Of a stretch of 64,000 nt of DNA, positions 52,645 through 61,468 are shown in pieces. The translations under genes and the position numbers were made by a program. Origin of the DNA: Gemmatimonadota bacterium (GTDB lineage: Bacteria > Gemmatimonadota > Gemmatimonadetes > Gemmatimonadales > Gemmatimonadaceae). Position 1 is the stretch's first letter, and each line of letters begins with the position of its first letter. The notes under the pieces were generated by a model, which searched no databases, was not told the origin of the DNA, and worked only from the letters and a program-made list of their open reading frames with translations. The stretch covers positions 248,001 through 312,000 of the forward strand of contig JAPLKS010000022.1 in assembly GCA_026387915.1 (NCBI GenBank), written 5' to 3'.

Positions 52645-53166
52645 TCAGCCTGTGAGCGTCACGTCAAAGAGATGTTTCGACGGCTGCGGGTCGCGGGTAT
52701 GAAACACCCGCAAGGTGCGGAGCGTCCACGGTTCGCTCTCGCGCACCCGTAGCATCGCACGCAATGACTCGGGCGTGATGGTCGGGTAAAAACTGAGCGT
52801 GCAGTGCGGAGTGAATGGGTACCGCGCGGCCGAGTATCGAAGTCCGCTCTGCTTGAGTGCTTCGTGCAGTGCGCGCACTGGGCCGTGTGGATCGAGCGGC
52901 AGCGACACTATCTCGCGCTGCAGAAAACGCATGGGTGCGCCAAAGGTCAGCGTGAGTGGCGCTGTTGCCGCGGCAATGGGCTCGATCACGGCACGCAGTT
53001 CCGCTACGGTCGTATCGGGCGCGATCGGTCCTGCGCCACTCGATCCGAGAATCGTCACGTGCGGCGGCAGCTCAGCCGCGAGCTTTGGATCGAACCGTTC
53101 CTGCAGCGCGTGCACACGTTCGGCAATCGCGCCATCGAGTTCCGCAATAATAAAGATGCCGTTCAT
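52645..53166 (-). CDS. 2'-5' RNA ligase/cyclic phosphodiesterase-family protein
   Basis: 173 residues from ATG 53166, ATGA overlap with the upstream PAP2 gene. Two HxT motifs of the 2H phosphoesterase family: PPHVTILG (His36, Thr38) and TPHCTLSF (His121, Thr123). Such enzymes cleave 2',3'-cyclic phosphates or join RNA. Last gene of a five-gene coupled operon whose first gene is a D-aminoacylase-like enzyme; the link is unclear. Confidence 0.85.
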   Translation of the reverse strand: MNGIFIIAELDGAIAERVHALQERFDPKLAAELPPHVTILGSSGAGPIAPDTTVAELRAVIEPIAAATAPLTLTFGAPMRFLQREIVSLPLDPHGPVRALHEALKQSGLRYSAARYPFTPHCTLSFYPTITPESLRAMLRVRESEPWTLRTLRVFHTRDPQPSKHLFDVTLTG

Positions 53167-53888
53167 CGTGCGTGATCGAGGTGACGCGAGAGCAGCAACC
53201 CGCTGACGGTACCGATTCCCGCGCCAAAGAGCACGTCGCTCGCCCAATGCTTGTTGTCATACATCCGCGAAAATCCGGTGAGCGCCGCCGCCGAGTAGAG
53301 TACGGGGCCGAGCCACCGCGCGCGCGCTTCATCGCGACTCGCCACGCGCGCCGTGATGGCCGAGGCGAACGCGAACGCCGCGGACGTGTGGCCGGACGGA
53401 AAGGACTGATAGTCACTCCCGTCACGAAAGCCGCGTCCAAACGCGGTGTTGTGCGCATCAGCCGGACTCGCGTAGGGACGAGCGCGGCCCACGGCGCCTT
53501 TGATGAGATAGGTGATCGTGCCGCTCAACGCCACCGCTTCAAGGGCGCGCACTCCGTCGGTGCTCATGGTGGCATCACCACGGACTTGCCCTGCGGCCCA
53601 GAGCCCAGCGCTGAGCACAAGCGAGCCTGGATCACCAAAGAGTCGCGCGCCCGTGAGGACGTGGCCGGCGAGCGCACTTCGGTGCGCCGGCGCCTGTGTC
53701 CACTGCGCCATGCGCACATCCGAAGAAAGCAATGCCGCCGCCGCGGCGAGGCTTGCGCCAAAAATTATTGATTCACGCGCGGTGACCGCAGGTTCCGGTG
53801 GAGCGACGGCCGTCGTCGACTGTGCGCGCACGGAAGGCGACACTACCGCAAGCAACAGCAGTACGCGACGCAGCGTTCGTGCGATCAT
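53163..53888 (-). CDS. PAP2-family phosphatase, exported
   Basis: 241 residues from ATG 53888 (MIARTLRRVLLLLAVVSPSV, a signal-like start). Phosphatase motifs: KGAVGRARPY, FPSGHTSAAF and SRMYDNKHWASDVLFG. Overlaps the second PAP2 gene by 4 bp (ATGA). Hydrolyses lipid phosphates or related monoesters in the envelope. Confidence 0.88.
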   Translation of the reverse strand: MIARTLRRVLLLLAVVSPSVRAQSTTAVAPPEPAVTARESIIFGASLAAAAALLSSDVRMAQWTQAPAHRSALAGHVLTGARLFGDPGSLVLSAGLWAAGQVRGDATMSTDGVRALEAVALSGTITYLIKGAVGRARPYASPADAHNTAFGRGFRDGSDYQSFPSGHTSAAFAFASAITARVASRDEARARWLGPVLYSAAALTGFSRMYDNKHWASDVLFGAGIGTVSGLLLSRHLDHAR

Positions 53889-54529
53889 ACTGTGGCGCTC
53901 CGCCCAGCAAGCGCACGGTCGAACGCCGAGTCGCCGTGCCGGAGGTGCCAACGCGTCAGCCACCAACTCACCGTCCCGCCAAGGAGGGCACCAAAGAGAA
54001 CGTCCGTGGCCCAGTGTTGATCGGTGTACATCCGCGCGCATGCCACGAGCAGAGCGGACACCACCAAGAGGCCGCCGCTGATTGCCCGCGACCACCGTGA
54101 GGCACCTAGGGTCACCATGCAGACGGCAATCGCAAACGCGGTGGTGGCTGTGGTATGACCCGACGGTAAAGAGAAATAGTGGGCATCGGTCCAGCCGTTC
54201 AGCACACTGAACTGCCACGGCTCACCCGGCGCAACAAAGGGCCGCGCGCGGCCGGCCACACCTTTGATGATGCCGCTGATCGCACTCGCCACCGCGAGTG
54301 CTTCGAGCCCGCGCACGCCCACGAGTGCGAGTGCGCGTCGATTGGCCACGCGTGCCCCGATCCAGAGCAACACACCACAATAGATGACACCGTCCCCACC
54401 CCACCAGTTCAGGAGGCCGGCCATCCCTTGTAGCAATGCATCGTGCTGCAACGCCGGCGACTGCATCCAGGCCTGTACCGCACGGTCAAGGTCGCAGACG
54501 ACGCCGACGACGTACGCACTCACCCCCAC
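53885..54529 (-). CDS. PAP2-family phosphatase, membrane type
   Basis: 214 residues from GTG 54529, overlapping the GntR stop by 10 bases. Five or six membrane segments and full PAP2 motifs: KGVAGRARPF, LPSGHTTATT and ARMYTDQHWATDVLFG. Similar to undecaprenyl-diphosphate or phosphatidate phosphatases. The next gene is a second PAP2 protein, so a tandem pair. Confidence 0.88.
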   Translation of the reverse strand: MGVSAYVVGVVCDLDRAVQAWMQSPALQHDALLQGMAGLLNWWGGDGVIYCGVLLWIGARVANRRALALVGVRGLEALAVASAISGIIKGVAGRARPFVAPGEPWQFSVLNGWTDAHYFSLPSGHTTATTAFAIAVCMVTLGASRWSRAISGGLLVVSALLVACARMYTDQHWATDVLFGALLGGTVSWWLTRWHLRHGDSAFDRALAGRSATV

Positions 54530-55269
54530 GCCCCGCGTTCTCCGCTGCGAGCGATCACACCGGCAAGGCGTTCGGCCGCGTTCTGCCAGTTCGCCTGCGC
54601 GGCGCGCTGGGCTTCGCTGGCATTGCCATCCCGAATCGCGCGGGCAATGCGATCGTGCTCCGTCACCGATGTGCTGAGCTCATTGGTCAAGAAACTCACA
54701 TAGAGCCGCTCATAACGCTCTGCCTGCGGCTTCACGGCATCGTACAACAAGCGCAGTCGCGGGCCAGCCGCCGCGTGCACGTACGTGCGGTGAAAACTTT
54801 CGTCGAGCGCCACCAACGTGTGATGGTCTGGGCGGCGCGCTTTCGATGCGCTGCCCAGCGCGGTGTTGATGTCGCGCAGTTTGCGAAAGAGCGTGGCGCG
54901 TGCCTTGGTCGACAGTCCCGCCGCATCCCGTGCGCCCAGTCCGTCGAGCGCCGCCACAACGTGAAACAACTCGCGTGCATCTTCCCGCGTCATCGGCGAC
55001 ACCACCAGACGCGTCTGACGCGCCGTCGGTGTGCGAGTGACGTTGCCTTCTTGTTCCAATCGACGCAGCACTTCCCGCAGTGGTGTACGACTCACGCCAA
55101 AGTGTGCCGCAAGCTCTGCTTCTACCAACCGCGCGCCCGGAGCCAGTCGCCCCGACACAATCATATCCCGTATCTCGGCGTACACGGCATCGTTCTGACG
55201 CTCAACGGCAACGATCGGCGCAGCTTTGGGACGTGCGTTCGCCCGAGGTTTCCGAATAGCCGCGGTCAC
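54520..55269 (-). CDS. GntR-family regulator (FCD type)
   Basis: 249 residues from GTG 55269, whose GTGA overlaps the upstream stop; an ATG at 55293 is a longer alternative. N-terminal winged helix (AEIRDMIVSGRLAPGARLVE, AELAAHFGVSRTPLREVLRR) and an all-helical FCD ligand domain with a candidate metal site (LDESFHRTYVHAA, TEHDRIARAIRDGN). It probably controls this divergent locus, since a TTGTATACAA palindrome of GntR type lies between the two operons. Confidence 0.9.
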   Translation of the reverse strand: MTAAIRKPRANARPKAAPIVAVERQNDAVYAEIRDMIVSGRLAPGARLVEAELAAHFGVSRTPLREVLRRLEQEGNVTRTPTARQTRLVVSPMTREDARELFHVVAALDGLGARDAAGLSTKARATLFRKLRDINTALGSASKARRPDHHTLVALDESFHRTYVHAAAGPRLRLLYDAVKPQAERYERLYVSFLTNELSTSVTEHDRIARAIRDGNASEAQRAAQANWQNAAERLAGVIARSGERGAWG

Positions 55270-56999
55270 TTGGGGCTGCTCCAGCCGGTCCACGCGGCGC
55301 CACGCACCACTTGGCCAGGTTTGGCGCCGGTGTGTGCACCGTCGCGGATCACTTCAATACCGTTGACGAGCACGTATTGCATCCCCACGGAGAGTTGGTG
55401 CGGTTTTTCGAATGTGGCAATATCGCGAATCGTCGCGGCGTCAAAGACCACCACATCCGCGCGCATCCCTTCCTTCAACACGCCACGATCATGCAGTTGC
55501 AACCGCGTGGCCACCGCGGCCGACGCCTTGCGCACGGCATCTTCTAGCGGCACGACCTTCTCGTCGCGCACATACTTGCCGAACAGGCGCGGGTAGTTGC
55601 CGTACCCGCGCGGATGCGTCATCCCCTGCGCCGTGGCCGGATCTTCCGATCCCGCATCGGTGCCGAACTTCATCCAGGGCTGTGCAATCTGCATGCGGAG
55701 ATTGTCTTCGCTCATTAAAAAGAGAATTTCGCCGAGGTTCGCCTTTTCGGCGATGTTGAGATCGATGATCACGTCGGCCCAATCCTTGTGCATGGCCGCC
55801 GAGATTTCCGATAGCCGCTTCCCTTCATACTGCTTGAGTTCGGGGCGCGTGAAGCCCGTCACCATGACGTTCTCTGGTCCGCCGGTGATGCAGAGGTTAT
55901 CAAACCCCGGCATCTTGCGATGGAGATCGGCCTTGATCAGTTCGCGCGTGGCGGGATTGGCGAGGTTCTCGAGCAGCTTGCCATCTGCCGCGTACTTCGG
56001 TGCAATGCAGGCGTTGAAGCCATTACCACCGGCCACATAAAGATACATATCGGCCTGCACATCCTGACCCGCGCGGCGCGCGGAATCGATTTTCGCGATC
56101 GCCAGCGCCATCTTGGGCCAGTTGCCCGGACCGGCAGCCTTCAGGTGGTACACCTCCACCGGAACGCCGCCTTCCTTGCCAACGCGAATGGCTTCGTCGA
56201 GCGCTTCGAGAAACTCGTCGCCCTCGTTCCGCATGTGGGTGATATACAAACCGCCGTACGGCGCCATCGCCTTGGCGGTCTCAATGAGTTCGCGCGTGCT
56301 AGAGTAACTGTTGGGCGGGTATATCAGCGCACTGGCAATCCCAAAGGCACCGTCTTGCATGGCGTGGCGCACCATCGCGCGCATGGAGTCGAGTTCCGTG
56401 GCCGTGGCTTCGCCGGTCGCGAAGCCTTTTCCCCATTGCCGGACGGTACCGCTCCCCACAAACGACCCGACGTTTTGTGAGAGCCCGCGGTTGCCCATAA
56501 AGTCGAGCCAGCGACCAAAGCCGTGGTCGCCCGTGAACTGGGAGACCAGTTTGCGCTGCGTCGTGTCCGTCATACTGGCCAGCATCTTCGCATTGACCGG
56601 AGCCGGCGTATCCCCCTCACCGAGGATGGCCGTGGTAATCCCTTGGGTCACCATCGAGATGGCCTTGCCGTCCCCGACCATGAAGTTCTCGTAGGACTGC
56701 GCCTGGATGTCGATAAACCCCGGCGCCACCACCATCCCCTTGGCGTCGATGCGCCGGGTGGCTGGCACTGCCGCCAGGAGGCCGCGCGGTGCGATCCGGA
56801 CAATGCGGCCGTTGGAGATGGCGAGATCCCCCCAGAACCACGACGCCCCGGTTCCGTCCACGATTTTGCCGTTCGCAATCACCACATCGTAGGGGGCACC
56901 CGCGGTCGCCAACGACGACCCGCGCACGAGGTTCGCCGTGCACCCTCCGAGCGGGGTGAGTGCGGCGGCGGCAAGAAACAAAGGGAGGAACTTGCGCAT
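55266..56999 (-). CDS. N-acyl-D-amino-acid deacylase-like lipoprotein
   Basis: 577 residues from ATG 56999 with GGAG nine bases upstream. Lipobox TPLGGCTA, so it is an envelope lipoprotein. Amidohydrolase fold of the D-aminoacylase family: PYDVVIANGKIVDGTG, then ITHMRNEGDEFLEALDEAIR, VEVYHLKAAGPGNW and MKFGTDAGSEDP, which hold the family's tight metal site and catalytic Asp. Odd point: the usual HxH after beta-strand 1 is QxQ (FIDIQAQSYENF), and the usual Cys region reads GEGD. The divergent racemase and L-deacylase operon supports an N-acyl amino acid substrate. Confidence 0.85.
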   Translation of the reverse strand: MRKFLPLFLAAAALTPLGGCTANLVRGSSLATAGAPYDVVIANGKIVDGTGASWFWGDLAISNGRIVRIAPRGLLAAVPATRRIDAKGMVVAPGFIDIQAQSYENFMVGDGKAISMVTQGITTAILGEGDTPAPVNAKMLASMTDTTQRKLVSQFTGDHGFGRWLDFMGNRGLSQNVGSFVGSGTVRQWGKGFATGEATATELDSMRAMVRHAMQDGAFGIASALIYPPNSYSSTRELIETAKAMAPYGGLYITHMRNEGDEFLEALDEAIRVGKEGGVPVEVYHLKAAGPGNWPKMALAIAKIDSARRAGQDVQADMYLYVAGGNGFNACIAPKYAADGKLLENLANPATRELIKADLHRKMPGFDNLCITGGPENVMVTGFTRPELKQYEGKRLSEISAAMHKDWADVIIDLNIAEKANLGEILFLMSEDNLRMQIAQPWMKFGTDAGSEDPATAQGMTHPRGYGNYPRLFGKYVRDEKVVPLEDAVRKASAAVATRLQLHDRGVLKEGMRADVVVFDAATIRDIATFEKPHQLSVGMQYVLVNGIEVIRDGAHTGAKPGQVVRGAAWTGWSSPK

Positions 57000-57021
57000 T
57001 TTGGGGCTCCGGAGACAATAT

Positions 57022-57043
57022 TTGTATACAATCTTGTACATAA
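57022..57043. promoter_or_regulatory. GntR-type operator between divergent operons
   Basis: A perfect 10-bp palindrome TTGTATACAA (57022-57031), followed by a second half-like TTGTACATAA (57034-57043). It sits in the 55-bp gap between the deacylase and GNAT starts. The TNGTATACNA core is typical of FCD-type GntR regulators. Confidence 0.65.
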
Positions 57044-57054
57044 ATTGTTCTCCT

Positions 57055-57852
57055 GTGACCATACCTGCAAGCCTTTCCGACGGTACGACCATCCGCGTTC
57101 TCTCCTCGCACGAGGACCGCGCGGCCGCTGTGCGCCTCCAAACGGAGACGTGGGGCGCCGACAATACAGAACGCGTGGCGGCAACTGTCCTGATGATCGC
57201 CGAGAAAATCGGCGGCGTGGCCAGTGGCGCTTTTGCGCCAGACGGCACCCTCTCCGGCTTCATCTTCGGCCTCACCGGCATCAAGGACGGCCATCTCGTC
57301 CATTGGTCCGATATGCTCGCCGTGCGACCTGAAGCGCGCGGCAATCGCCTCGGTGAAGCCCTAAAACAATACCAGCGCGAACGTTGCCGCGCCCTCGGTG
57401 TCGAAACCATGTTCTGGACATTCGACCCCCTCGTCGCCCGCAACGCGCATCTCAATCTCAACAAACTTGGTGCCGGTATCGCCGAGTTTGTCCCAGATAT
57501 GTATGGCCACACCGGTAGTCATATCCACTCACTCGGCACCGACCGCTTTGTTGCGGCCTGGCCACTGCAACGAAATCCGGTCATGCTGTCGGATAACCCG
57601 CGCTTGCTCCAGGGTTCGCCGATCGTCGCCGACGGCAGTGGCACCCAGCTGCCGCTCCTAGATTCGCCAAATGTCGTCGTGGCGGTGCCGTACGACCTGC
57701 CCACGCTCGTCGCAGCCGACCGACCGCGCGCCCAGCAGTGGCAACTCGCGGTGCGCCGCGCCCTCTCGCACTACTTCACCGCGCGATACACCGTGACCGC
57801 GTTTGTTCCGGGCGCCGGTGGCGACGCCCATTATCTGTTCTCCAAACCCTGA
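57055..57852 (+). CDS. GNAT-family acyltransferase of N-acyl amino acid operon
   Basis: 265 residues from GTG 57055, with no clear ribosome site. GNAT core: HWSDMLAVRPEARGNRLGEA with the acyl-CoA loop, then CRALGVETMFWTFDPLVARN and NLNKLGAGIAEF. In Geobacillus kaustophilus a GNAT succinyltransferase next to an N-succinylamino acid racemase and an M20 hydrolase turns D- into L-amino acids. This gene is first in the same three-gene order, so it may N-acylate (succinylate) D-amino acids. Confidence 0.82.
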   Translation: MTIPASLSDGTTIRVLSSHEDRAAAVRLQTETWGADNTERVAATVLMIAEKIGGVASGAFAPDGTLSGFIFGLTGIKDGHLVHWSDMLAVRPEARGNRLGEALKQYQRERCRALGVETMFWTFDPLVARNAHLNLNKLGAGIAEFVPDMYGHTGSHIHSLGTDRFVAAWPLQRNPVMLSDNPRLLQGSPIVADGSGTQLPLLDSPNVVVAVPYDLPTLVAADRPRAQQWQLAVRRALSHYFTARYTVTAFVPGAGGDAHYLFSKP

Positions 57853-57864
57853 GTTCAACCTCAC

Positions 57865-59040
57865 GTGACTGACAACACTGCAAAAATGAGCCCGCGCGTC
57901 GGATCGACCGCGTCGGCACCCCTCTGCGTGGATCGCATCACGCTGCGGCAAATTGAGCTGCCGCTCAAGGAGCCCTTTCGAATTTCCTCCGGCGTCGTAC
58001 ACAATCGCCGCATCATGCTCCTCGAGCTGCATGACAGCTCCGGTGCCGTGGAATGGAGCGAGTGTGTGGCCGGGGAGTCGCCCAACTATTCGAGCGAGGC
58101 CATCGACACCGCGTGGCTCGCCGTCACTAAATGGGTCGCGCCGCGCGTCCTTGGGCGCACCTTCTCGCACCCGAGCGAAGTGCATCCGCTCCTTGAGCGA
58201 GACTTCCGCGGCCATGAAATGGCCAAGGCCGGCGTCGAAATGGGGATGTGGGGCCTCGCCGCCAAAATGGCGAACATGCCGCTCGCGCGATTCATCGGTG
58301 GCGTGCGTACAGAAATTGCCACTGGTATTTCACTCGGCATTCAAAAAGACCCTGCCACGCTCGTCGCGCGCGCCAGTGAGGCCCTCGCGGCGGGATATCG
58401 CAAGGTGAAAATCAAGATCGAACCTGGGAACGACATCGAATGGGTGCGCGCCGTGCGGAACGCCGTCGGGCCCGACGCCCACCTCATGGCCGACGCGAAC
58501 AACGCCTATTCGCTCGAAGACGCCGACCATCTCGCCAAGCTCGACGACCTCGGCTTGATGATGATCGAGCAACCGCTCTCGCACAACGATTTGGTGCGGC
58601 ATGCGGCGCTGCAACGCAAACTCCGCACGCCCATCTGCCTCGACGAAAGCATCACGTCGCTCGAACGTGCGCAAGACATGGTCACGCTCGGCAGCGGCCG
58701 CATCATCAACATCAAGGCCGGGCGCGTGGGTGGCTTCGCCAGTTCGCTCGCCATTCACGATTACTGCCTCGAACAGGGCGTGCCAGTCTGGTGCGGCGGT
58801 ATGCTCGAGAGTGGCATTGGGCGTGCGTACAATGTGGCGCTCGCGTCGCTCCCGAACTTCGTCTTGCCCGGCGATCTGAGTCCGAGTGCGCGCTACTGGG
58901 CACAAGATGTGGTCACCCCAGAGTGGACGATGACCGACGGCATGGTGCGCGTCCCACTCGACGTGCCGGGCATCGGCGTGACGGTGGATCGTGCCCGCGT
59001 TGAGTCGATCACCACGCGAACCGAAGTGCTCTCCGCGTGA
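57865..59040 (+). CDS. N-acylamino acid racemase / o-succinylbenzoate synthase-like (enolase superfamily)
   Basis: 391 residues, 12 bases after the GNAT gene. MenC/NSAR-type enolase superfamily member: the catalytic pair Lys in YRKVKIKIEPG and Lys in INIKAGRVGG, metal ligands in LMADANNAY, MIEQPL and ICLDESITS. Family members make o-succinylbenzoate or racemise N-acylamino acids, often both. No other menaquinone genes are in the window, so the racemase role is favoured by the operon context. Confidence 0.9.
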   Translation: MTDNTAKMSPRVGSTASAPLCVDRITLRQIELPLKEPFRISSGVVHNRRIMLLELHDSSGAVEWSECVAGESPNYSSEAIDTAWLAVTKWVAPRVLGRTFSHPSEVHPLLERDFRGHEMAKAGVEMGMWGLAAKMANMPLARFIGGVRTEIATGISLGIQKDPATLVARASEALAAGYRKVKIKIEPGNDIEWVRAVRNAVGPDAHLMADANNAYSLEDADHLAKLDDLGLMMIEQPLSHNDLVRHAALQRKLRTPICLDESITSLERAQDMVTLGSGRIINIKAGRVGGFASSLAIHDYCLEQGVPVWCGGMLESGIGRAYNVALASLPNFVLPGDLSPSARYWAQDVVTPEWTMTDGMVRVPLDVPGIGVTVDRARVESITTRTEVLSA

Positions 59041-60227
59041 GCAACGCACTGCCGTTCACGGATGCCGAGATCGCGGCGCTCCGCGCGCTGCGTCGCGATC
59101 TGCACCAGCATCCGGAACTGTCGTGGCAAGAAACACGCACGCAAGACACGCTAGAGCGTTTCTTGCGTGCACACGGGGTGTCGCAGGTGGAGCGTATTGC
59201 GCGCACCGGTCTCGTGGCGCGCATTCCGGGGCTCAATCCCACCGCAGCGCCCATCGCGCTGCGCGGCGACATCGACGCACTCCCCATTCAGGAAGCCACC
59301 GGCTTGCCCTTTGCGTCCGAGCACGCCGGTGTGATGCACGCCTGCGGTCACGACGTGCACGCCTCGTGGGCGGCCGGCGCCGCAATTCTTCTAGCGCGGA
59401 ATCCGGCGACGGCAGAAGTGCGCGTGATCTTTCAGCCTGCTGAAGAAGTGGGAGAGGGAGCGCGTGCCGTCATCGAAAGCGGCGCGCTTACCGGCGTCAG
59501 CGTCATCTACGGCGCGCATGTGGATCGGCGCTTTCCGGTTGGCGAAGTCGTGGCGCAAGCCGGACCACTCGCCGCCAGTACCGACTCCTTTTCCATTACA
59601 CTGCATGGCTCTGGCGCGCACGGCGCGCGGCCGCAGGAATCCGCGGATCCCATCATTGGCGTGGGTGCATTGATTCTTGCGATACAGACGATTGTGTCGC
59701 GCCGTCTCGACCCTGCACTCCCGGGGGTCGTCACCGTCGGGTCGGTACAGGCCGGGCGCGCCGGGAATGTGATTCCGGAATCTGCGGAGCTCACCGGTAC
59801 GATTCGCGCCACCACGCCAGCCTCGCGTCAGCTCCTCAACAGCGAGCTCGAGCGTATCGCGCACGCCGTGGCCGCGACGCACCGTCTGCGCGCCACCGTC
59901 ACACTCACCGATGGTACGCCGCCTGTGGTCAACGACCCGCGCGCGGCTGACATCGCGGCCAACGCGGTGCGCGCAGTGCTCGGCGCGCAGGCGCTCATCC
60001 CGCTCGGCACCACCAATATGGGCGGCGAAGACTTCGCCTTCTATCAGGAACAGATTCCGGGGTGCTTTATGCGCGTTGGTGCGCGTGAGGCCGGCGGCGA
60101 GATGACGGCGGCACATTCGTCACGCTTTGTGGCCGACGAAGAATGTCTGTTCATCGGCGCAGCGGTGCTCAGTGAATGCGCACGCCTCAGCTGCGTCAGC
60201 GCCGCCGGATCTGCCGCGACCGCCTGA
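59037..60227 (+). CDS. M20-family N-acyl-L-amino acid deacylase
   Basis: 396 residues from GTG 59037, GTGA overlap with the racemase gene. Cytoplasmic (no signal). Metal residues of the AmaA/hippurate hydrolase branch: LRRDLHQHPELSWQE, LRGDIDALPIQE, VMHACGHDVHASW, FQPAEEVGEGA, and GGEDFAFYQE near the end. It would release the L-amino acid from the N-acyl-L intermediate, making the D-to-L conversion irreversible. Its last 32 bases overlap the convergent phospholipase D gene. Confidence 0.9.
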   Translation: MSNALPFTDAEIAALRALRRDLHQHPELSWQETRTQDTLERFLRAHGVSQVERIARTGLVARIPGLNPTAAPIALRGDIDALPIQEATGLPFASEHAGVMHACGHDVHASWAAGAAILLARNPATAEVRVIFQPAEEVGEGARAVIESGALTGVSVIYGAHVDRRFPVGEVVAQAGPLAASTDSFSITLHGSGAHGARPQESADPIIGVGALILAIQTIVSRRLDPALPGVVTVGSVQAGRAGNVIPESAELTGTIRATTPASRQLLNSELERIAHAVAATHRLRATVTLTDGTPPVVNDPRAADIAANAVRAVLGAQALIPLGTTNMGGEDFAFYQEQIPGCFMRVGAREAGGEMTAAHSSRFVADEECLFIGAAVLSECARLSCVSAAGSAATA

Positions 60228-61353
60228 GATCGTCCTCGAACATCTGTTCGGCAGCAGCACCGACGACCGGGTCTTCGATCATCGCATCTAACTCATAGTT
60301 GATGGCCACGCCGAGTGGATTGAAGTCGGTGGAGCCCACGCGCGTCCAGCGACCATCAATCACGGCGGTTTTGGCGTGCATCATCTCGCCGCCCCATTCC
60401 CAGATGCGCACCTTGTTGCGCAACAACCGATCATAGTACCGGCGCGTCATGCCGTGAATCCACGGATGGTCATAGCGGCTCGGCACCAAGAGTCGCACGT
60501 CCACGCCATCGCGCGCCGCGCCGGCCAGCGCTTCGACCTCCGCAAACGACGGTACGAAATACGCGCTCGCAATCCAAATGGATCGCTGCGCCGCAGCCGC
60601 CTGCAGGTGCAACGCCCGCGCGACCCGCAACCGCCAGGGCTCCCCTTCAATTATTCCGACGAGTGAGGGAATCGCCGTCGCAGGATCGAGGTCTCCGCCG
60701 AACGCGCCGCGCACCAGCTTGCGCAGCTTCCGGCGCGGCTTTTTTTCACCACCGGCAATGGCCCATGTCCGGCGAAAAGCCGATTCGAGGTCGCGCGCAG
60801 CTGGGCCTTTGATGCGCACACAGGTGTCGCGCCACGGCTGCCGGTGGCGGCGGAGCAATCCGTACTGCCACTCTTCACCAATCCCGATGCCGCCCGTAAG
60901 CCCCACATGCCCATCGGCGACGAGCAGCTTCCGGTGATCCCGCGGCAGCAACCCAAACCACGACTTCCAGCCAGGGCGATTGAACACCCGTATGTCCACA
61001 CCGCCACGGCGGAGCTCGTCAAAGAACTTGGCCGGTGTGCCGCGTCGTCCAAGCCAGTCCACCAGTAAGCGAACGTGCACCCCGCGTCGCGCCGCATCGA
61101 GCATCGCGCCGCTGAACCGTTTGCCCACCAGGTCGGCTTTGAAGATGTAGCTCTCCAGACTCACCGATTGCTGCGCGTGCTCAATGATGGCGATCATCGC
61201 GTCAAAGGTCCGCGTGCCATCAGAGTAGAGTTCCACGCGATTGCCCGGGGTCACCCGCGCCGACGCCAACCGCCAGAGGGCGCGCGCAAACGAAGGGCCG
61301 CCGCCCGCCGGTAACGCCGGTGGTGGCGGCGGCGGAACCGTGGGTTCCACCAT
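60196..61353 (-). CDS. Phospholipase D-family protein, cardiolipin synthase-like
   Basis: 385 residues from ATG 61353 (GGAG four bases upstream); ATG 61386 is an alternative. Two HKD motifs: DHRKLLVADGHVGLTGGIGI and MHAKTAVIDGRWTRVGSTDF. The N-terminal Pro-rich stretch replaces the usual membrane segments, so it is a soluble or peripheral form. It probably makes cardiolipin or a related phospholipid from phosphatidylglycerol. Confidence 0.9.
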   Translation of the reverse strand: MVEPTVPPPPPPALPAGGGPSFARALWRLASARVTPGNRVELYSDGTRTFDAMIAIIEHAQQSVSLESYIFKADLVGKRFSGAMLDAARRGVHVRLLVDWLGRRGTPAKFFDELRRGGVDIRVFNRPGWKSWFGLLPRDHRKLLVADGHVGLTGGIGIGEEWQYGLLRRHRQPWRDTCVRIKGPAARDLESAFRRTWAIAGGEKKPRRKLRKLVRGAFGGDLDPATAIPSLVGIIEGEPWRLRVARALHLQAAAAQRSIWIASAYFVPSFAEVEALAGAARDGVDVRLLVPSRYDHPWIHGMTRRYYDRLLRNKVRIWEWGGEMMHAKTAVIDGRWTRVGSTDFNPLGVAINYELDAMIEDPVVGAAAEQMFEDDLRRSRQIRRR

Positions 61354-61468
61354 CCGTCTCCGGCCAGGCCTCAAGGATCCGCTCATATGTGGAGATTGCC
61401 CATTCCCGCACCTGCGCGGAAGCCCCGTACCCACTTGCCTGCGCCACGCGCCTAGGTCATATCATTGT

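Follow-up and report, generated by a model that had tools for sequence, protein, structure and literature searches.

Comparison with described systems

The closest described counterpart of the locus analyzed here is the Geobacillus kaustophilus pathway of D-amino acid N-succinyltransferase, N-succinylamino acid racemase (NSAR) and N-succinyl-L-amino acid hydrolase, reportedly described by Sakai et al. in 2006. Our locus lies in a 64,000-nucleotide stretch of a Gemmatimonadota genome (GenBank assembly GCA_026387915.1, contig JAPLKS010000022.1, positions 248,001 to 312,000), hereafter the window. It encodes the same three enzyme classes together, with the same expected one-way D-to-L logic, the GNAT acyltransferase being compared by class and not by sequence. 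Unlike the Geobacillus pathway, the window locus has a second, divergent arm encoding a lipoprotein, is accompanied by a GntR/FCD regulator with a predicted operator, and is linked to genes for D-Ala-D-Ala peptidases, SusCD and a permease. We consider it likely that the locus is a GntR-controlled module for the one-way salvage of D-amino acids as L-amino acids, with peptidoglycan-derived D-amino acids its likely main source.

In the ddp operon of E. coli, the D-Ala-D-Ala dipeptidase DdpX is encoded with a peptide transporter, and D-Ala is handled by a racemase/dehydrogenase. Scavenging of D-Ala-D-Ala by a VanX-like dipeptidase is common to that operon and the system proposed here; unlike the ddp operon, the latter is predicted to pass D-Ala through an N-acyl route. 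The three-enzyme core is already known from Geobacillus, whose NSAR and L-succinylase are named among related enzymes in PMC7431475. What is new, within the literature that we searched, is a divergent lipoprotein arm whose metal site is altered, an operator, and a connection, through both gene position and regulation, to genes for uptake and for D-Ala-D-Ala peptidases. We found no open-text paper on a locus of this type.

A two-armed locus conserved among relatives

The locus consists of two divergent arms whose start codons are 55 bp apart. Its features, in window coordinates, are as follows.

54520-55293, minus strand: GntR-family (FCD subfamily) regulator with Pfam GntR and FCD domains, adjoining the lipoprotein gene and/or GNAT-NSAR in relatives
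55266-56999, minus strand: D-aminoacylase-like amidohydrolase lipoprotein of 577 amino acids with lipobox LGGC, identified from its start, lipobox, PDB match, residues and model
57022-57031, no strand: perfect palindrome TTGTATACAA, the predicted GntR operator, from its conservation in GntR-bearing relatives
57034-57043, no strand: imperfect operator-like site TTGTACATAA next to the palindrome, a second and weak candidate seen in the sequence and part-conserved in relatives
57055-57852, plus strand: GNAT N-acyltransferase of 265 amino acids with a GTG start, from a Pfam match at cut-off, AlphaFold2 model, fold match and neighborhood
57865-59040, plus strand: enolase-superfamily enzyme of the NSAR/o-succinylbenzoate synthase (OSBS) subfamily, from TIGR01928, PDB match and catalytic residues
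59037-60227, plus strand: M20-family amidohydrolase, from TIGR01891, PDB match and M20 motifs

The three plus-strand genes form an operon with a 12 bp gap between the first two and a 4 bp overlap between the last two, and on the minus strand the GntR gene overlaps the upstream lipoprotein gene by 28 bp. Two longer mechanical open reading frame (ORF) starts were set aside. For the lipoprotein, the start at 57512 (ORF 55266-57512) is over-extended and the ATG at 56999 is the likely start, fitting the lipobox and homologues; for GNAT, 57055 fits homologues and 56938 was rejected.

An earlier, sequence-only reading had proposed a two-armed N-acyl amino acid locus for D/L interconversion at 55266-60227. 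The two-armed locus is real: all of its parts are present at or near those positions, and the layout recurs in relatives. The core of the proposal, irreversible D-to-L conversion by GNAT, N-acylamino acid racemase and L-deacylase, is supported by a futalosine route to menaquinone and by the retention of all NSAR/OSBS catalytic residues, as described below. The word interconversion should give way to one-way D-to-L conversion. The shared regulator that it placed in the left arm gains support from an operator palindrome in the divergent promoter; the GntR gene is mostly outside the proposed interval.

A GNAT gene is near the NSAR gene in 77 of the 80 loci from relatives, and over a dozen Gemmatimonadota loci repeat the two-armed layout, lipoprotein included, so the gene arrangement is not due to chance. 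Most of these relatives (61-98% identity) are metagenome-assembled genomes of Gemmatimonadota; Acidobacteriota are found toward the low end of that range. The host genome itself is 3.58 Mb with an estimated completeness of 100%.

The GNAT protein reaches 20.7 bits in Pfam, exactly the cut-off. A PDB sequence search with it gave no convincing match, and fold comparison of a model settled the family: an AlphaFold2 model built from 56 sequences has a mean predicted local distance difference test (pLDDT) score of 96.2, and its residues 9-174 match GNAT N-acetyltransferases with Z up to 16.6. The model thus confirms a GNAT fold, and the last 90 residues form a conserved C-terminal extension. We propose that this protein is a D-amino acid N-succinyltransferase, a candidate function suggested by its family and neighbors. 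Homologues at 26-47% identity are found on plasmids of Gemmatirosa, Deinococcus, Sulfitobacter, Streptomyces and Bacillales. In Gemmatirosa kalamazoonensis, a culturable member of the phylum, a GNAT-NSAR locus is on plasmid NZ_CP007130. A second GNAT type, 36-39% identical (L187 13305-15469 and L188 3671-5844), was seen beside an amino-acid permease and GntR with no NSAR in the cluster.

The M20 protein scores 340 bits against TIGR01891 (cut-off 153.75), has YxeP as its best PDB match (1ysj, E 1.4e-80), and contains the motifs ACGHD, PAEE, GAHV and AAHSS. We propose it as the N-acyl-L-amino acid deacylase of the pathway. Acidobacteriota loci (L071-L087) keep GNAT-NSAR pairs without an adjacent M20 gene, the deacylase being elsewhere or different; in the four of these loci that were inspected for a substitute, no clear L-deacylase was present beside GNAT-NSAR.

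The proposed racemase gene in a futalosine genome

The NSAR/OSBS protein scores 322 bits against TIGR01928 (cut-off 200.65), which NCBIfam names o-succinylbenzoate synthase, and its best PDB match is the Amycolatopsis N-acylamino acid racemase 1sja (E 2.8e-89). All catalytic residues of the Amycolatopsis enzyme (K161, K163, D189, E214, D239 and K263) and R266 have counterparts in the window protein, in which K182, K184, D210, E235, D260, K284 and R287 are invariant across 81 homologues. Among these are the subfamily's lysine pair (K163/K263, here K184 and K284), its metal ligands (D189/E214/D239, here D210, E235 and D260) and R266 (here R287).

The operon gene encodes the only TIGR01928 protein of the host genome. 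Elsewhere the genome contains a futalosine cluster of an MqnE-like gene, an MqnA-like ORF and MqnC, in that order. MqnC is over its cut-off at 457 bits, the MqnE-like protein is just below its own (424 bits versus 434.6), and the MqnA-like ORF, which had no NCBIfam match, was assigned by its N-terminal sequence and position. Profile searches of the host genome for MenD and MenB returned best scores of 63 and 178 bits, under the cut-offs of 244 and 343, and these matches are presumably other members of the thiamine-diphosphate and enoyl-CoA-hydratase families. A need for OSBS in the host is contradicted by this alternative quinone route and by MenB and MenD not exceeding their cut-offs, and we therefore rejected the operon enzyme as an OSBS for menaquinone. 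The sequence-only reading had pointed to menaquinone genes elsewhere as a check, and had named an enolase-family protein acting solely as OSBS as one finding that would overturn it; the Mqn cluster, the Men searches and the single NSAR/OSBS-family gene all speak against such a protein.

The same separation is apparent in a phylum sample of 150 genomes, where MenB was found in 48, MqnC in 90, both in none, and neither over cut-off in 12. A TIGR01928 protein together with MqnC and without MenB occurred in 53 genomes. GNAT was adjacent to the TIGR01928 gene in 12 of 12 futalosine genomes versus 7 of 12 MenB genomes, and M20 was near it in 11 of 12 versus 1 of 12. In one genome with MenB and no MqnC (G014), the TIGR01928 gene is about 3.6 kb from menB and has no GNAT beside it; G014 is a lone MenB genome inside a futalosine family, the quinone pathway being split within the phylum. 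Other TIGR01928 proteins, scoring about 204-227 bits, form a second group of greater divergence; many of them are in futalosine genomes of family f2 (order-level genomes, e.g., G002, G012, G020 and G073).

A conserved palindrome accompanies the regulator

The regulator contains a GntR helix-turn-helix domain (Pfam, 70 bits, 1.3e-19) and an FCD domain (55 bits, 1.2e-14). Upstream of GNAT, TTGTATACAA is exact in 10 of the 13 relatives whose contig carries GntR as well as GNAT, and also in L013, where the contig stops before the GntR position (L011, L012, L013, L015, L018, L028, L042, L043, L049, L051 and L055 in all). Among loci without GntR, the lone match was one with a single mismatch (L037). 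Because L042 has GntR and the palindrome with no lipoprotein match on its contig, TTGTATACAA follows the regulator rather than the lipoprotein. The 10-bp core is conserved while its flanks diverge among relatives, and the second site, TTGTACATAA, is partly kept in L011, L012, L013, L015 and L018.

In 59 genomes of the family, TTGTATACAA and GntR co-occur (Fisher p 1.7e-5, uncorrected for relatedness), with 16 of the 63 TTGTATACAA sites at most 3 kb from a GntR gene versus about 0.07 expected. The host genome has nine copies of TTGTATACAA versus one of a reversed control word. We predict that the palindrome is the shared operator of the divergent promoter and propose the GntR protein as the repressor of both arms. 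A sigma-70 promoter scan of the divergent region gave nothing usable, with counts near those of shuffles.

Linkage to D-Ala-D-Ala peptidases and uptake genes

One host copy of TTGTATACAA is in a divergent promoter, with PBP4 and the following fusion gene on one side and a series of SusC, SusD and amino-acid permease genes on the other.

L109 2472-4958 (C22:197171-199657): 829-amino-acid fusion of an AmpH-like PF00144 domain with a VanX/DdpX-like D-Ala-D-Ala dipeptidase

The SusC-SusD-permease series ends beside another D-aminoacylase-like gene, and a further copy of TTGTATACAA is at the start of a second PF00144 (AmpH-like) gene. Since the palindrome precedes genes for enzymes that cut D-Ala-D-Ala (the AmpH-like/VanX-like fusion and PBP4), SusC/SusD and a permease, peptidoglycan-derived D-Ala and other D-amino acids are likely the main source for the pathway.

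The AmpH-like/VanX-like protein occurs in 18 of the 59 family genomes, the match being confined in some to the C-terminal part. In six of these 18 (G131, G031, G172, G158, G161 and G077), a GntR gene and the VanX gene are no more than about 7 kb apart, where by our own estimate well under one genome would be expected by chance. NSAR belongs to the same cluster in two: G131 has M20-NSAR-GNAT divergent from lipoprotein-GntR-AmpH-VanX, and G158 has AmpH-VanX-lipoprotein, M20-NSAR-GNAT and GntR together. In the other four, GntR is joined with VanX, AmpH-like genes and a permease. In G023, GntR is divergent from GNAT-NSAR-M20-permease-D-aminoacylase-SusC. This clustering, along with the operator palindrome, strengthens the suggestion of D-amino acid salvage made in the sequence-only reading.

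A lipoprotein with an altered metal site

The left-arm lipoprotein scores 57 bits against Pfam Amidohydro_3, and its closest solved relatives are D-aminoacylases (PDB 1rjp, E 1.3e-71). A model built from 17 sequences has a moderate pLDDT of 76, and its top Foldseek matches are again D-aminoacylases (best E 3.5e-33). The Alcaligenes D-aminoacylase (1m7j/1rjp), a subtype V amidohydrolase, is thus the closest relative in fold and sequence, and equivalents of its metal-binding H220 and H250 and catalytic D366 are kept. Unlike the Alcaligenes enzyme, the window protein is a lipoprotein, has QxQ in place of HxH (QxQ or QxH across its homologues), and has Glu at the position of Cys96, so that the beta-site set of Cys96, His220, His250 and Asp366 is incomplete. 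Its variant site comprises Q99-x-Q101, E128, H255, H285 and D448, with E128, at the Cys position, invariant in 17 of 17 left-arm homologues. The D-aminoacylase-like left arm of the sequence-only reading therefore holds as to fold and sequence, with the amendment that its metal ligands are not those of a standard D-aminoacylase.

Loss of activity does not follow from these substitutions, because the N-acetylglucosamine-6-phosphate deacetylase of E. coli is an active amidohydrolase that works with a single metal, although its HxH has been lost in a similar way and a Glu serves as ligand. In subtype V enzymes, Cys binds the essential metal, and it is essential in OngB, a sugar-acid deacetylase among the lipoprotein's relatives (PMC12017989). 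Enzymes of the D-aminoacylase fold can also be beta-mononuclear (PMC12017989), and with two His, an Asp and a Glu remaining we did not accept that the lipoprotein is dead through the loss of HxH. Judged by these residues, it is plausible that it acts like a D-aminoacylase, though we do not count it among the classical ones. A preprint on a metal-dependent bile salt hydrolase (PMC13081902) was discarded as a parallel, as it concerns a different, binuclear amidohydrolase group. The host genome also encodes several D-aminoacylase-like paralogues with differing metal-ligand motifs (L092-L096; L109 11170-12792).

Parallel loci in Deinococcus and Sulfitobacter

Linkage of GNAT and NSAR is kept across Gemmatimonadota, Acidobacteriota and Deinococcus. 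Plasmid operons of D. ficus, D. psychrotolerans and Deinococcus sp. QL22 likewise place NSAR next to GNAT, the latter about 34% identical to the window GNAT. An M20 gene is present in D. ficus. The QL22 operon runs NSAR-GNAT-ABC permeases-substrate-binding protein-serine hydrolase-D-aminoacylase, and its D-aminoacylase has the same GEG Glu motif as the left-arm lipoprotein. In D. psychrotolerans, the order is NSAR-GNAT-ABC-PF00144 hydrolases, near a glucosamine-6-phosphate deaminase. Peptide ABC transporters replace SusCD/permease in the Deinococcus operons, which further differ from the window locus in their regulators (MurR/RpiR in D. ficus) and in a menC annotation. That the same functional set recurs in another phylum, where transporters and regulators are different, speaks in favor of a genuine role in salvage.

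In the inspected Deinococcus and Sulfitobacter records, the menC-annotated gene is in the same operon as GNAT. The following NSAR-like genes from these two genera, all beside GNAT, are labeled menC/o-succinylbenzoate synthase in RefSeq with a menaquinone Gene Ontology term.

L204 4868-6004: NSAR-like gene labeled menC
L205 3951-5168: NSAR-like gene labeled menC
L206 3909-5096: NSAR-like gene labeled menC
L207 5868-7004: NSAR-like gene labeled menC
L208 3829-4977: NSAR-like gene labeled menC

The label is odd in Sulfitobacter because its group uses ubiquinone, and a systematic misannotation is probable.

Proposed mechanism and alternatives

Under the salvage model, the lipoprotein would act outside the cell as a single-metal deacylase and would probably cleave N-acyl-D-amino acids or related D-terminal fragments to yield free D-amino acids. 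The freed D-amino acids would enter the cell before acylation. In the cytoplasm, GNAT would acylate them, probably with succinyl-CoA, the NSAR-type racemase would equilibrate the N-acyl-D and N-acyl-L forms, and the M20 enzyme would deacylate the L form. Spending of acyl-CoA and L-specific hydrolysis would together make the flow one-way, and the route would require neither a pyridoxal phosphate (PLP) racemase nor a flavin oxidase. GntR would bind TTGTATACAA in the shared promoter, with a D-amino acid or acyl-D-amino acid as the effector that releases it. Each catalytic step is assigned from family membership.

Several observations weigh against this model. Its support is genomic, consisting of gene content, residues, operon layout, operator conservation, linkage and the negative MenB and MenD searches, while substrates, acyl donor, stereospecificity, effector and binding of the regulator to its operator are inferred. 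R266, a marker of NSAR capability, was rejected as a discriminator between racemase and OSBS, because relatives from MenB genomes have it too. The lipoprotein lacks the usual Cys ligand and HxH of D-aminoacylases. An exact TTGTATACAA is missing from L038, L058 and L069, whose GntR is more distant, and the palindrome also stands beside paralogous GntR genes unlinked to NSAR. We therefore rejected strict specificity of TTGTATACAA for this regulator, and it is uncertain which of its other sites belong to the regulon. No evident link was seen for six of the nine host sites, which mostly fall within predicted genes. APC, SusC/D and PF00144 proteins are numerous in the phylum, and some neighbors may be there by chance.

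Alternatively, N-acyl amino acids could be taken up as such, with the lipoprotein and M20 as general deacylases, NSAR rescuing the wrong enantiomer and GNAT serving detoxification. The breadth of N-acyl groups accepted by NSAR enzymes (PMC7431475), the broad aminoacylases among the best matches of M20 and the kinship of the lipoprotein to OngB would suit this scheme, which we nevertheless regard as improbable because it leaves the linkage to D-Ala-D-Ala peptidases and an amino-acid permease unexplained. About equally improbable, in our assessment, is D-to-L conversion by the right arm alone, the lipoprotein and regulator being neighbors with another role. Many relatives do have GNAT-NSAR-M20 without the lipoprotein, whose metal site is altered and whose paralogues in the genome are several, but the two-armed layout recurs with a shared operator, and a Glu-type D-aminoacylase sits within the QL22 NSAR-GNAT operon. 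That the enolase-family gene is a true menC with incidental neighbors is very improbable despite its NCBIfam name and the genes of its subfamily that presumably act as OSBS in MenB genomes, G014 among them, given the host's futalosine cluster, the sub-threshold MenB and MenD scores, and the GNAT and M20 neighbors, which nearly all futalosine genomes share and fewer MenB genomes do.

Extending the salvage model, we tentatively suggest, as a possibility somewhat short of even, that a dedicated system for foraging D-amino acids from peptidoglycan exists in Gemmatimonadota and has a parallel in Deinococcus. D-amino acids would be released by secreted D,D-peptidases together with a lipoprotein, a new N-acyl-D-amino acid deacylase of Glu type with a single metal; SusCD/permease or ABC transporters would import them, and the N-acyl racemase route would convert them to the L form without a PLP racemase or oxidase. 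In Gemmatimonadota, one GntR operator would govern the system. The many genes labeled menC in genomes of either group that have such a system would be misnamed. The salvage model places the NSAR pathway, whose natural role is little studied, in a concrete physiological setting, that of recovering D-amino acids from cell walls, and supplies an operator that can be tested. It also indicates that the label o-succinylbenzoate synthase is wrong for genes in futalosine genomes, where it distorts predictions of menaquinone pathways. The lipoprotein points to an uncharacterized metal-site variant of D-aminoacylases that is of interest for enantiopure amino acid production.

Neighboring genes

Directly downstream of the GntR gene, two overlapping minus-strand ORFs (53163-54529) resemble, by eye, tandem PAP2-type phosphatases. 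On the other side, a cardiolipin-synthase-like (PLD) ORF on the minus strand (60196-61434) is convergent with the M20 gene and overlaps it by 32 bp, a placement kept in several relatives.

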